A DNA stretch of 23,508 nt. Source: a virus. Location: positions 1 through 23,508 of IMG/VR virus record IMGVR_UViG_3300020192_000082. The stretch is one strand, 5' to 3'. Positions 3,769 through 14,669 of the stretch are shown piece by piece. The position numbers and the translations under genes were made by a program. The notes under the pieces were generated by a model that was not told the DNA's origin, did no database searches, and saw only the letters and a list, made by a program, of their open reading frames with translations. Position 1 is the stretch's first letter; every line of letters begins with the position of its first letter.

Positions 3769-4995
3769 TTATATTGAATCGGTGATAGAATGTAATTGGT
3801 GTATTGTTAAGCCTTCGCCAATGCTGATCTCTTTTACATTAAAGTAAAATTCACCGCCCACCAGCTCCACCAGGTAATGTATAAACCTGACCCATTTTGG
3901 GTTAAGTGGGTCGCTGATCAGCGTCTCACCCGTTACTTTTAGTTCCGGCGTTACATAGTTGAAAGCTGTTAACAAGTTATTGCGTACCGCCACCATTTCG
4001 TGCGGTCCTTGCATCACCGTTTCAATCATTGCCTGGCTTAATCGCAATGGTTGCGGTAAACTAGGTAGTGTAAACTGATTACTAGCGTGTCGGGCAATTG
4101 CTAGTTTTTTAGTGCTGGCAAGGTCGAGGCGCTCTAAATAATTGTTTGCCTGGCGTTGTACTTTTTCCGCGTCGAGCGTACCTACATCAAAATAAGGATG
4201 GTCGTCGCCGAATACCTTGCCGGTTTTTCCCGCATTTTGCCGGAATCCTTTATCTGGCTGGAAGTTGGCAATCTTGCCATTCGCTTCGGCATCGGTTTGG
4301 ATCACCTTGCACCGGCATCGCCAGCCATTGGGTGGATAGTTGACATCCCAAAATAGATTATTCACCGGATGGATCGCGCCGTCGAGCAGTACGTGCTTTG
4401 GGCGAACTCTTGCATCGCCAGCCGTATCATAACGAAGATTGGGGTACAGAAAAGCCCGCTTTTCAAACTCTGCCCAGTCTTCTGCGGCTTGCGCTACTTG
4501 CGTAGCGCTAGTCAACTCGGTACGTAAATAAGTGACGTTATGCAGTTTTAGAATATCGGCTGCATTCTTTTTATAATCGGCAAAAGGGAGCTTGTTACCG
4601 GCTTTGTCCACCATGATGCGGCGTAGCTCTTCGGTAAGCGCCTGCTGTTTGTGCGCTGCAAAATGACTGAGGTTTTGCTGCATTTGTTGAAACTTGCTAA
4701 ACTCGGCGTAGCTCGTTGCTTCTGTAAATTGCTTGCCATACCCAGCCTCCGCAAATTGACGAAAACGGGTAAAGTGTTCGATCCAAAGCTTTTCGTGAAT
4801 GTCCGTCGTGTCAATGATTTGCTTATACACCTGATCGGCGTAGTCGTCTATGACCTCCGTGCTGATCCGGGTAAATTTGGTAGAGAAGTCAGCAAGTGTA
4901 ATTTCTTCGCCGATACAACCTTCGCACCTGCAACCGTCGTCGTGTAAGCCATATATTTTGCGTATTTCGAGTAAGCGCCGGGTGCTACGACTCAG
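3769..4995 (-). CDS. MuF-like head morphogenesis protein with extra C-terminal domain; start unclear
   Basis: The MuF (PF04233) core is clear: RVRPKHVLLDGAIHP, NNLFWDVNYPPNGWRCRC, i.e. H-x-x-LDG, FW, PP and CRC. The first standard start is GTG 4830 (353 aa), but a clearly protein-like sequence continues upstream in frame for 55 more codons (LSRSTRRLLEIRKIYGLHDD, then CRCEGC with cysteines C-x-C-x2-C) until AAC/AAA codons and a TAA at 5005-5007, with no ATG, GTG or TTG. The coordinates use CTG 4993-4995, which overlaps the portal stop as CTGA; entry by a -1 slip from the portal gene on the A10 run is the alternative. After the MuF core, about 90 C-terminal residues form another domain (FNYVTPEL, KWVRFIHYL, GEFYFNVKEI, HQLHSI) resembling the barnase/EndoU/colicin-like or polyvalent-protein domains fused to some MuF proteins. 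Role: a few copies inside the head, near the portal. Confidence 0.8.
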   Translation of the reverse strand: MSRSTRRLLEIRKIYGLHDDGCRCEGCIGEEITLADFSTKFTRISTEVIDDYADQVYKQIIDTTDIHEKLWIEHFTRFRQFAEAGYGKQFTEATSYAEFSKFQQMQQNLSHFAAHKQQALTEELRRIMVDKAGNKLPFADYKKNAADILKLHNVTYLRTELTSATQVAQAAEDWAEFEKRAFLYPNLRYDTAGDARVRPKHVLLDGAIHPVNNLFWDVNYPPNGWRCRCKVIQTDAEANGKIANFQPDKGFRQNAGKTGKVFGDDHPYFDVGTLDAEKVQRQANNYLERLDLASTKKLAIARHASNQFTLPSLPQPLRLSQAMIETVMQGPHEMVAVRNNLLTAFNYVTPELKVTGETLISDPLNPKWVRFIHYLVELVGGEFYFNVKEISIGEGLTIHQLHSITDSI

Positions 4996-6362
4996 GTTTT
5001 TTTTTTACCGGTCTGTGGCTTTTTGGCTTCGCCTGGCGTGTCGTCGTCTTCATCGTCCTCTATGCCGCCTACTTCCTCGCCCGCTTCTGGCATCGGTATC
5101 TTGTACTTTTCATACCAATACTTGTTCGCAATCGGTACTTTTTCCGATACTTTGAGGTCAATATTTAAGCGCTCGCTGAGGGTGATCGTTTCCTCATCTA
5201 CAAAACTCCATTCGCCTCCTTTTACTGCGTAGCCAATCCGCTCCAGATAGGGCGTGAGTAATTCGTTACAAAGCCGGATGATGAATTTGCGATCTGATCT
5301 ATGGCGTTGGTTTTGGGTCTCCTGGTGGGTTTTGCTTTGGGCGTATCCGCTACTGGTGGAGCTGGTGGTTGTTTCGGTATTGCCGAGTATGGTTACGCTT
5401 ATCTCTTGGTTACAAGCTATCCATAGTTCTTTGAATACGTCCGTACCACTTTGAGCGCCAGGGCTAAAATATTCAAGTTTTGCATCTTCTGGCGCAACGG
5501 CATATCCGGCGCTGCCAGCTTCGGCGAGTGCTTGCTCTAAGATCAGGCGGCTTTGGTCGTTGTTGTACGTCGCCCACCGGAAGGGCATACCGAAGCGTTC
5601 AGCAAACTCCGCCCAGTCGCCGAAGTCGCCCCGCTTGTAGATGACGTATTGGGCAGCCTTTAATAATAAACCAAGATCGTTGTCTTTTCCGATCTCAATT
5701 GTAAAGTAATCGAATGGTGCTTCGCGGTATTTGATGCCATCGGTACCCCATTGCTCTTTTGTGACTATGCCTAGTCGTGGCTTTACGTGTTTGCGGGGAA
5801 TGATATTTGTTTTACCCACATCGGTGCCGGGCGCACCCCAGTGTAATTCTATCAGGGAGTGTCCCCAGATTTTTGCATACAATACCTGGCGCAGAAACTC
5901 CTCAAAGAAACTCTTTTCGGTTAGCTTCTCTACATCGTCCACTTGCTTGCCTTCTACTGTAAAAGTCAGATTGAGGTTGGTGATTGCTTCTACTCGTTTT
6001 TCAATCGCGTCGCTGAGATGACCATCTAAAAGGATGTCCTCATAAAGATCGTAGAGCAGAACCCGTTGGTCACTATCTGCTTCTGCTGCGATCATGGCGT
6101 TGCGCCATTTTTGAATGTCCTGGCTTTGGCGATTGATGGGGCGTACCGTCAGGTTGTTGACAATTACTTGTTTGCCGGTCATATCGGGTTGTGGACTACG
6201 GTAGTTGGTTTTGGTAGCAAGTTCTACCGGTGCTGGAGTGGCAAAGATGCGTGCTGCAGACCGTAAAAAGGTGCTTACTTTCTCTGATTTGAAAAAACTC
6301 AAAAAAGAGCCATTTTTAAGCCTGTCACGAAGCGCGGTATTTTCTGACCCGATAGTACGCAT
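4992..6362 (-). CDS. Portal protein (DUF935, Mu gp29-like)
   Basis: 456 aa from ATG 6362. The DUF935 signature is near residues 235-262: LLKAAQYVIYKRGDFGDWAE followed by FAERFGMPFR. Upstream, LLYDLYEDILLDGHLSDAIE (about 102-121) and WGHSLIELHW (about 166-175) also match the family; downstream come an S/T-rich loop with TETTTSSTSSGYAQ (about 330-345), then NELLTPYLERIGYAV. The C-terminus is acidic (EEVGGIEDDEDDD) and then lysine-rich. The portal forms the dodecameric ring through which the terminase pumps DNA and to which the neck binds. Length is close to Mu gp29 (about 510 aa). It follows the DUF1320 gene by 75 bp and overlaps the upstream-extended MuF frame at CTGA. Confidence 0.9.
   Translation of the reverse strand: MRTIGSENTALRDRLKNGSFLSFFKSEKVSTFLRSAARIFATPAPVELATKTNYRSPQPDMTGKQVIVNNLTVRPINRQSQDIQKWRNAMIAAEADSDQRVLLYDLYEDILLDGHLSDAIEKRVEAITNLNLTFTVEGKQVDDVEKLTEKSFFEEFLRQVLYAKIWGHSLIELHWGAPGTDVGKTNIIPRKHVKPRLGIVTKEQWGTDGIKYREAPFDYFTIEIGKDNDLGLLLKAAQYVIYKRGDFGDWAEFAERFGMPFRWATYNNDQSRLILEQALAEAGSAGYAVAPEDAKLEYFSPGAQSGTDVFKELWIACNQEISVTILGNTETTTSSTSSGYAQSKTHQETQNQRHRSDRKFIIRLCNELLTPYLERIGYAVKGGEWSFVDEETITLSERLNIDLKVSEKVPIANKYWYEKYKIPMPEAGEEVGGIEDDEDDDTPGEAKKPQTGKKKT
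4998..5004 (-). promoter_or_regulatory. Candidate -1 slippery site A-AAA-AAA at the portal end
   Basis: On the - strand the portal gene ends GGT AAA AAA AAA ACC TGA. The A10 run (4997-5006) gives a heptamer A-AAA-AAA in the right phase for a -1 slip, after which reading continues AAC CTG AGT into the MuF frame without a stop. Only a weak 4-bp GAGT/ACTC pairing is visible downstream, so a stimulatory structure is not evident. An 11-A run would fuse the two genes directly. Confidence 0.35.
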
Positions 6363-13974: not shown

Positions 13975-14511
13975 ATGGTTTCGCAGAAGCAAATAGAGAA
14001 ATGGAAGGAAGAGCATGGCGAGGTGTTGCACCTTCCTTTTGGCGATGGTAAGGAGTGTTACCTAAAACAACCGGATCGCCGGGTACTAGGTTTGGCGTAT
14101 GCCAAAGGCGCAAAGGATCCGCTTGCCAGTGCCGAGGTGCTACTTAATAACTGCTGGCTGGCTGGTGATGAGGAAGTAAAGACAGGGGTGGGCTATCTAC
14201 TCGCTATAAGCGACCTAGCAAATGAAATAGCCGGGCGGGTGAACGTGGAGGCAGTAGAGTTTGCTAATGAGATACACTTTCAATTTGAGAATGGTAAAAA
14301 TTGTGTGATTCGCCGCCCAAATCGGCAACAGGCAAGCGAGGCAATGCTGGCAGCGCGTCGGGACCCCATCAGCATGGTAGAAAGTTTTTTGCGCAATTGC
14401 TGGGAAAGTGGCGATTTGGAGATTAAGACCAACGTCGGGTATCTCATCAGCCTGGTGCAAGAAGTGGATCGAATACTGGAGGTAAAAACCGTGCAGGTAA
14501 AAAAAATTTAG
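13975..14511 (+). CDS. Tail assembly chaperone, unshifted product (G-type)
   Basis: 178 aa, located between tube and tape measure genes, the fixed position of the G/GT chaperones. It consists of two tandem copies of one domain. Copy 1 has GDGKECYLKQPDRR, LLNNCWLAGDEEVKTGVGYL; copy 2 has ENGKNCVIRRPNRQ, FLRNCWESGDLEIKTNVGYL. Each copy is about 70-75 residues with the same spacing of G-K-x-C, R-x-P-x-R, NCW-x-x-GD and K-T-x-V-G-Y-L. It ends at TAG 14509-14511 directly after an A8 run. It should bind the tape measure protein and keep it soluble until the tube grows. Confidence 0.8.
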   Translation: MVSQKQIEKWKEEHGEVLHLPFGDGKECYLKQPDRRVLGLAYAKGAKDPLASAEVLLNNCWLAGDEEVKTGVGYLLAISDLANEIAGRVNVEAVEFANEIHFQFENGKNCVIRRPNRQQASEAMLAARRDPISMVESFLRNCWESGDLEIKTNVGYLISLVQEVDRILEVKTVQVKKI

Positions 14512-14669
14512 AAAGCGCCGCCGGCTCCTTTGAAGCCAATCCAATCAGCTACATCAATACGCTCTTACGCTACTATCTGCATATAAACGAACCGGAAAAG
14601 CTGGAAGACGATACCTGGGCAATGTGCTACGCTCAACTACAAGACATCCGTAAAAAAGAAGCTAAGTAA
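13975..14669 (+). CDS. Tail assembly chaperone, -1 frameshift product (GT-type)
   Basis: A -1 slip on A-AAA-AAA (14499-14505) bypasses the TAG and reads on through SAAGSFEANPISYINTLLRY, YYLHINEPEKLEDDTWAM and CYAQLQDIRKKEAK to TAA 14667-14669, giving about 231 aa. The extension has no start codon of its own, is protein-like throughout, and its stop overlaps the tape measure start as TAATG. In lambda and many other phages the GT extension recruits tube protein to the tape measure. Confidence 0.75.
14499..14505 (+). promoter_or_regulatory. Programmed -1 frameshift slippery site A-AAA-AAA
   Basis: The frame reads GTA AAA AAA ATT TAG, so the heptamer at 14499-14505 is A-AAA-AAA in the correct phase, three bases before the stop codon. 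A GC-rich stretch and a 4-bp GGCT/AGCC hairpin follow within about 35 nt. Confidence 0.75.

Follow-up and report, generated by a model that had tools for sequence, protein, structure and literature searches.

A probable programmed −1 ribosomal frameshift, with a conserved signal, between the portal and MuF genes of Mu-like phages

The window analysed here, which is the whole 23,508-nucleotide stretch of IMG/VR virus record IMGVR_UViG_3300020192_000082, is a fragment of a Mu-like phage carrying a series of head genes on its minus strand: the small and large terminase, a gp36-like adaptor, the portal, MuF and a neck protein. The host is likely to be a member of the Bacteroidota, since relatives of the portal were found in Saprospiraceae MAGs. 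The portal gene (positions 4992 to 6362, minus strand; Portal_Mu, PF06074/DUF935) encodes a default, zero-frame product of 456 amino acids, which matched the Pfam profile with an E value of 1.4e-71 (242 bits against a curated cut-off of 23.9). The codons closing the ORF are GGT AAA AAA AAA ACC TGA, giving a C-terminus of GKKKT before the TGA at 4992 to 4994, and the 3′ end of the gene is spanned by a run of ten adenines (5006 to 4997, minus strand). Inside this run, and in phase with the portal frame, lies the slippery heptamer A_AAA_AAA (5004 to 4998, minus strand), a place occupied in relatives by A_AAA_AAG or G_GGA_AAG. The same A10 is present in a second IMG/VR contig, 3300020219_000087 (99.5% identity over 7.2 kb, 29 mismatches), thus making an assembly slip unlikely.

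MuF occupies the −1 frame relative to the portal; a TAA where the A run begins closes this frame on its upstream side, and from there it is open to 3769, which bears out the earlier proposal that a −1 slip on the heptamer would enter MuF without encountering a stop. Entry by such a slip (AAC CTG AGT ...) would yield 409 codons (3769 to 4998, minus strand) and, together with 455 residues of portal, a product of about 864 amino acids. The Phage_Mu_F domain (PF04233) was matched over residues 155–233, at 4300 to 4536 on the minus strand (E 1.3e-13, 52.1 bits against a curated cut-off of 29.6). It had also been noticed that MuF lacks an ordinary start, and indeed no ATG, GTG or TTG is found for about 55 codons, the first being the GTG at 4828 to 4830 (minus strand), 164 nt past the portal stop. 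This upstream stretch contains a C-x-C-x2-C motif (CRCEGC, 4915 to 4932, minus strand), and the Cys cluster is conserved in close relatives. The MuF-frame codon which overlaps the portal stop is CTG (CTGA, 4995 to 4992).

Relatives were searched for in viral contigs, genomes and phage records using the portal as query and never the junction; as loci were picked by portal similarity, their selection took no account of the junction. The portal and MuF were located by profile HMMs, both built from the same locus set, and their frames were then compared. Following the removal of near-copies, 80 non-redundant Portal_Mu/MuF junctions were obtained, with MuF in the −1 frame in 44, in a single ORF with the portal in 30 and in the +1 frame in six. 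A strong, in-phase slippery heptamer was present in the overlap at every one of the 44 −1 junctions, against approximately 2.2 expected by chance, and at the junction of 29 of the 30 single-ORF loci, against 2.6 expected. The chance rate was taken from the portal bodies (33 in-phase heptamers in 86 kb), and the loci are phylogenetically related, so nominal p-values overstate their independence. The best heptamer at the −1 loci was T_TTT_TTC in 23 cases, A_AAA_AAG in eight, A_AAA_AAA in five, and G_GGA_AAG and T_TTT_TTT in four each. Within the clade of the window the heptamer sequence varies while the slippery class stays the same: A_AAA_AAA is found in the window, L016 and L026, A_AAA_AAG in L015, L017, L029 and L036, and G_GGA_AAG in L018, L027 and L028. 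In L015, L018 and L029 one of the latter two heptamers takes the place of the A run, at the same position.

At the junction it is codons rather than amino acids that are conserved. TTTTTTC occurs there 45 times in phase and four times out of phase, and of 60 Phe-Phe pairs encoded at the junction 45 use T_TTT_TTC, compared with three of 69 elsewhere in the same genes (Fisher p 4e-18, a nominal value as the loci are related); the two Phe codons, TTT and TTC, are otherwise used equally in these genes (1019:994). An outgroup of 13 more distant Mu-type portal–MuF pairs, amongst them those of Escherichia phage D108, Faecalibacterium phage Mushu, Alteromonadaceae phage B23 and Pasteurella phage AFS-2018a, has no heptamer in any of the 13, and each of the three relative frames is represented among their MuF genes; a start codon lies near the portal stop in most, and further downstream in L107, L110 and L115. 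Strong heptamers were found in five Bacteroidota genome loci near the family profile (L116, L118, L122, L125 and L127), L128 and L130 have A_AAT_TTT instead, and L129, the portal of which is more distant, also has an A-run heptamer. Amongst the +1-frame loci, four (L008, L009, L046 and L058) lack the heptamer and carry an ATG close to the portal stop, and L083 is of the single-ORF type with T_TTT_TTC, its frame break coming later. The sixth, L041 (4246 to 5251), is near the clade of the window; here an in-phase A_AAA_AAA (A8) is followed by MuF in the +1 frame, with the first ATG 40 nt past the portal stop.

The heptamer is accompanied by a hairpin. A stem beginning 2–10 nt past the heptamer was found at 39 of the 44 −1 loci (9.4 in shuffled sequences, 8.3 in control windows) and at 25 of 29 single-ORF loci (5.3 and 7.2, respectively), which amounts to 64 of 73 junctions where about 15 would be expected. 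In the T-type loci a stem score of 6 or more was reached by 49 of 50 (shuffles 9.3, control windows 10.7), with the hairpin mostly starting 5–6 nt 3′ of T_TTT_TTC. The T-type stem is GCCCC/GGGGC, with the variants GCCCAC/GTGGGC, GCCCGA/TCGGGC, GGCCTGA/TCAGGCC, AGCCCTTC/GAAGGGCT, AGCCCAGC/GCTGGGCT and GCTCCTCA/TGAGGAGC. When the 3′ arms were swapped between T-type loci the mean number of Watson-Crick pairs fell from 6.64 to 5.09, and none of 500 swaps reached the observed value (maximum 5.44), thus indicating that the two arms covary. The stem in the clade of the window is GCCGTAG/CTACGGC, and the homologous stem-loop predicted in the window itself (4945 to 4994, minus strand), presumed to be stimulatory, pairs 4994–4986 with 4953–4945 through 9 bp including three G-U wobbles (UGAGUCGUA/UAUGGCUUA). 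At −10.5 kcal/mol (z −0.7) it is not better than shuffles, and the signal of the window is therefore a structurally weak member of its family; pair counting in the subclade of the window alone, where the stem hardly varies, gave no more covariation than shuffles. The longer A run in the window may compensate for the weak hairpin, or may add transcriptional slippage.

Most of the single-ORF loci retain the hairpin, and the heptamer is T_TTT_TTC in 22 of the 29 which carry one. A −1 slip at the junction would here leave the MuF frame and, from the site chosen at each locus, meet a stop after 2–30 codons (29 of 30 loci), a reversed polarity akin to that of dnaX, in which the full-length protein is made in the zero frame and slipping truncates it; the polarity of the window is the opposite. 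On a maximum-likelihood portal tree, from which the junction was excluded, at least 10 switches between the split and single-ORF arrangements are needed, with the signal kept, and each requires just one frame-changing indel between the slip site and MuF. The strongest reason to think that both arrangements need a short portal as well as a portal–MuF fusion is that the signal has been kept while the arrangement changed repeatedly, and this makes an unusually clear evolutionary case that both products matter; the short and the MuF-tailed portal are apparently always made. L051 (1336 to 3876) is the sole single-ORF portal–MuF without a strong junction heptamer, having CCT TTT CGT (within DPFRNAP) where relatives have T_TTT_TTC, and seems to have lost the signal. 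The short tails predicted after a slip in single-ORF T-type loci often contain W-x-(S/N)-P-H before the stop, for example RRSPASRGIEWKSPHTAE (L004, L021, L049, L061, L068–L070, L073, L077 and L100); this could be a by-product of conservation in the zero frame or a real tail of the short form. A PBECR2 domain was found in 14 of the 23 single-ORF proteins scanned.

Features of the proteins are in keeping with translation across the junction. In the stretch which precedes any start codon, differences between close pairs fall at codon positions 1/2/3 in the numbers 139/112/232 (the pairs are not independent), and this third-position excess indicates that MuF is the frame translated there. In a predicted structure of the single-ORF protein of L042 the slip codon is residue 430, in a disordered linker (390–431) that follows the portal fold and precedes the first MuF helix, so the portal should tolerate the addition or omission of MuF. 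In a structure search the portal part of this predicted fold resembles the JBD30 and Mu portals, with nothing specific to MuF among the matches listed; with a mean pLDDT of only 73 and a pTM of 0.48, the placement of the domains is uninformative.

We consider the portal–MuF junction to be a conserved site of −1 programmed ribosomal frameshifting, yielding a short portal and a portal–MuF fusion, with a probability of roughly 92%; the fusion by a −1 slip suggested in the initial annotation is strongly supported by the heptamers of the −1 relatives and by the signal kept in the single-ORF ones. Ribosomes translating the portal would reach the in-phase heptamer, A_AAA_AAA in the window, with the hairpin about 3–6 nt further on; most would terminate at the TGA and release the portal alone, whilst a fraction would slip back by one base and continue into MuF to produce the fusion. 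Sister phages have the two frames the other way round: as with dnaX, the short portal would result from the slip and the fusion from zero-frame translation. MuF proteins are located in the capsid, on the portal, have a low copy number and can bear toxin or nuclease payloads. The frameshift would most likely serve to equip a ring composed mostly of plain portal with a few MuF domains that are covalently attached and lie on the capsid interior side, the copy number of MuF thereby being set at translation. As an arithmetic estimate, slipping by around one in ten ribosomes would give a few tethered MuF domains per ring; for single-ORF members to arrive at the same composition, frequent slipping or later proteolysis would be required. 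The occurrence of slippage in cells, how efficient it is and what it serves are matters we infer from the sequences, and the product ratio and the mixed ring are predictions on the same footing; the fixed low ratio of MuF to portal put forward in the initial annotation would be a reasonable outcome. A_AAA_AAA slips less than A_AAA_AAG in E. coli (PMC5009743), and Bacteroidota tRNAs may differ from those of E. coli in this behaviour. With odds that we put only a little better than even, the portal ring of Bacteroidota Mu-like phages would combine short and MuF-tailed subunits in a programmed mosaic, their ratio being set by −1 frameshifting; the selected trait would then be the ratio of the two products and not the gene arrangement, leaving the default product free to flip.

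An alternative route to the same fusion is transcriptional slippage, in which the A10 run would be copied with A's gained or lost, so that a fraction of the mRNAs, carrying 11 or 8 A's, could be translated into the fusion in the ordinary way. The initial annotation was right that 11 A's would fuse the genes outright, and slippage of RNA polymerase could also bring this about in the window phage. At ten, the run exceeds the nine-A run at which bacterial slippage has been documented (PMC5009743) and falls within the limit of at least nine A or T used for such sites; long A runs also occur in L040, L048, L064 and L006, and the hairpin of the window is weak. However, the runs of most relatives are short, the heptamers in use being T_TTT_TTC, A_AAA_AAG or G_GGA_AAG, and a hairpin at fixed spacing, which polymerase slippage does not need, has been retained. 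The dependence of T_TTT_TTC on phase would also be left unexplained, and we regard this route as unlikely.

Other explanations dispense with the slip altogether. MuF might initiate independently, through translational coupling, at the CTG that overlaps the portal stop, as the initial annotation had offered; a CTG sits exactly there, it recurs in L012, L013, L016, L017, L026, L027, L028 and L036, and phage p00 (L003) has an ATG overlapping its portal stop. The close relatives L015, L018 and L029, however, have CTA at this position with the same hairpin, 27 of the 44 −1 loci have no ATG, GTG or TTG until more than 40 nt past the stop, and initiation at an ordinary start codon accounts neither for heptamers being in phase nor for single-ORF phages having kept them, all of which renders the CTG start very improbable. 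An ATG in place of the CTG together with loss of the A run, named earlier as the pattern that would speak against slipping, is absent from the clade of the window, where those three relatives have CTA. A usable start near the portal stop exists in a few −1 loci (ATG in L003, L063 and L098, TTG in L087 and L101), and separate initiation of MuF may occur in some of these; the three with ATG are more distant from the window and retain the heptamer and hairpin. Slightly less credible still is production of MuF only from the downstream GTG at 4830, the first common start codon in frame and the one that automated annotation would choose, as similar late starts have been annotated in TCUEAP3 and Peternella_1; such a start would discard 55 codons whose protein sequence is conserved in relatives, along with their Cys cluster and their excess of third-position substitutions, and the match to the MuF profile begins about 41 nt past the portal stop. 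We give hardly any credence to the frame break having arisen through gene decay or through a mistake in assembly or sequencing, the true gene being one fused ORF: single-ORF fusions are common among relatives and homopolymers are prone to error, but two contigs agree on A10, the flanking frames are intact and the same −1 offset recurs at 44 junctions with differing heptamers, many without a long homopolymer. The CTG start, the GTG start and the assembly error were each tested and rejected on these grounds.

The programmed frameshift proposed here resembles several known systems. In bacterial dnaX (tau/gamma) the heptamer A_AAA_AAG and a 3′ hairpin give two C-terminal forms, and the roles of the zero-frame and shifted products can reverse between species (PMC5009743). 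However, dnaX is a different gene with a different purpose and its reversal has been noted in few bacteria, whereas at the portal–MuF junction both polarities are common and have been exchanged at least 10 times on the tree. The tail assembly chaperones G/GT (lambda G-T, SPP1 17.5/17.5*) likewise append a C-terminal domain at a set ratio by −1 frameshifting in a structural gene; UUUUUUC is used in SPP1 (PMC6316719), and T TTT TTC has been proposed as the slip site in PaMx73 (PMC4378225). The portal–MuF slip site differs in lying in head-side genes, outside the tail tube–tape measure interval that defines G/GT, in its products, and in having single-ORF relatives of reversed polarity. SPP1 gp17.1/gp17.1* offers a minority of subunits with a frameshift-encoded C-terminal extension, at a 17.1:17.1* ratio of 3:1 in tails (PMC6316719), but there the shift is +1 and the protein is that of the tail tube. 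MuF proteins such as Mu gp30 and SPP1 gp7, and the in-frame portal–MuF–PBECR fusions of PMC5512222, in which no frameshift is mentioned, share the domains and gene order but are separate genes or plain fusions; D108, Mushu, B23 and AFS-2018a fall with the former, having no slip signal.

In-frame portal–MuF fusions, the polarity reversal of dnaX and frameshifting of phage tail chaperones are already known, and a literature search that covered few subscription papers found no account of a frameshift between the portal and MuF. The conserved signal would provide a direct answer to how the low copy number of MuF is fixed in a large group of phages, including Hankyphage (p00) and Porphyromonas gingivalis phages, and portal rings may not consist of identical subunits. 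There is also a consequence for annotation, as MuF in some of these phages appears to be annotated from a late start. In Elizabethkingia phage TCUEAP3 (L005, OK632026.1) and Winogradskyella phage Peternella_1 (L006, MT732475.1) the annotated MuF begins 278 and 101 nt past the portal stop, respectively, with the −1 frame open from the slip site in each, and an N-terminal part seems to have been missed in both.

An apparent second −1 frameshift is found in the window phage at 13975 to 14669 on the plus strand, in the ORF directly upstream of the tape measure gene. This ORF ends GTA AAA AAA ATT TAG and carries A_AAA_AAA at 14499 to 14505, beyond which the −1 frame runs for 54 codons to a TAA at 14667 to 14669 which overlaps the tape measure ATG. 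The layout is that of a tail chaperone G/GT pair, and the window thus seems, judging from this arrangement, to have a G/GT-type system of its own. PHROGs returned no function for the chaperone-like ORF; the protein that it encodes (13975 to 14511, plus strand) contains an internal tandem duplication, residues 13–78 matching the second half with 38% identity (E 1e-20).
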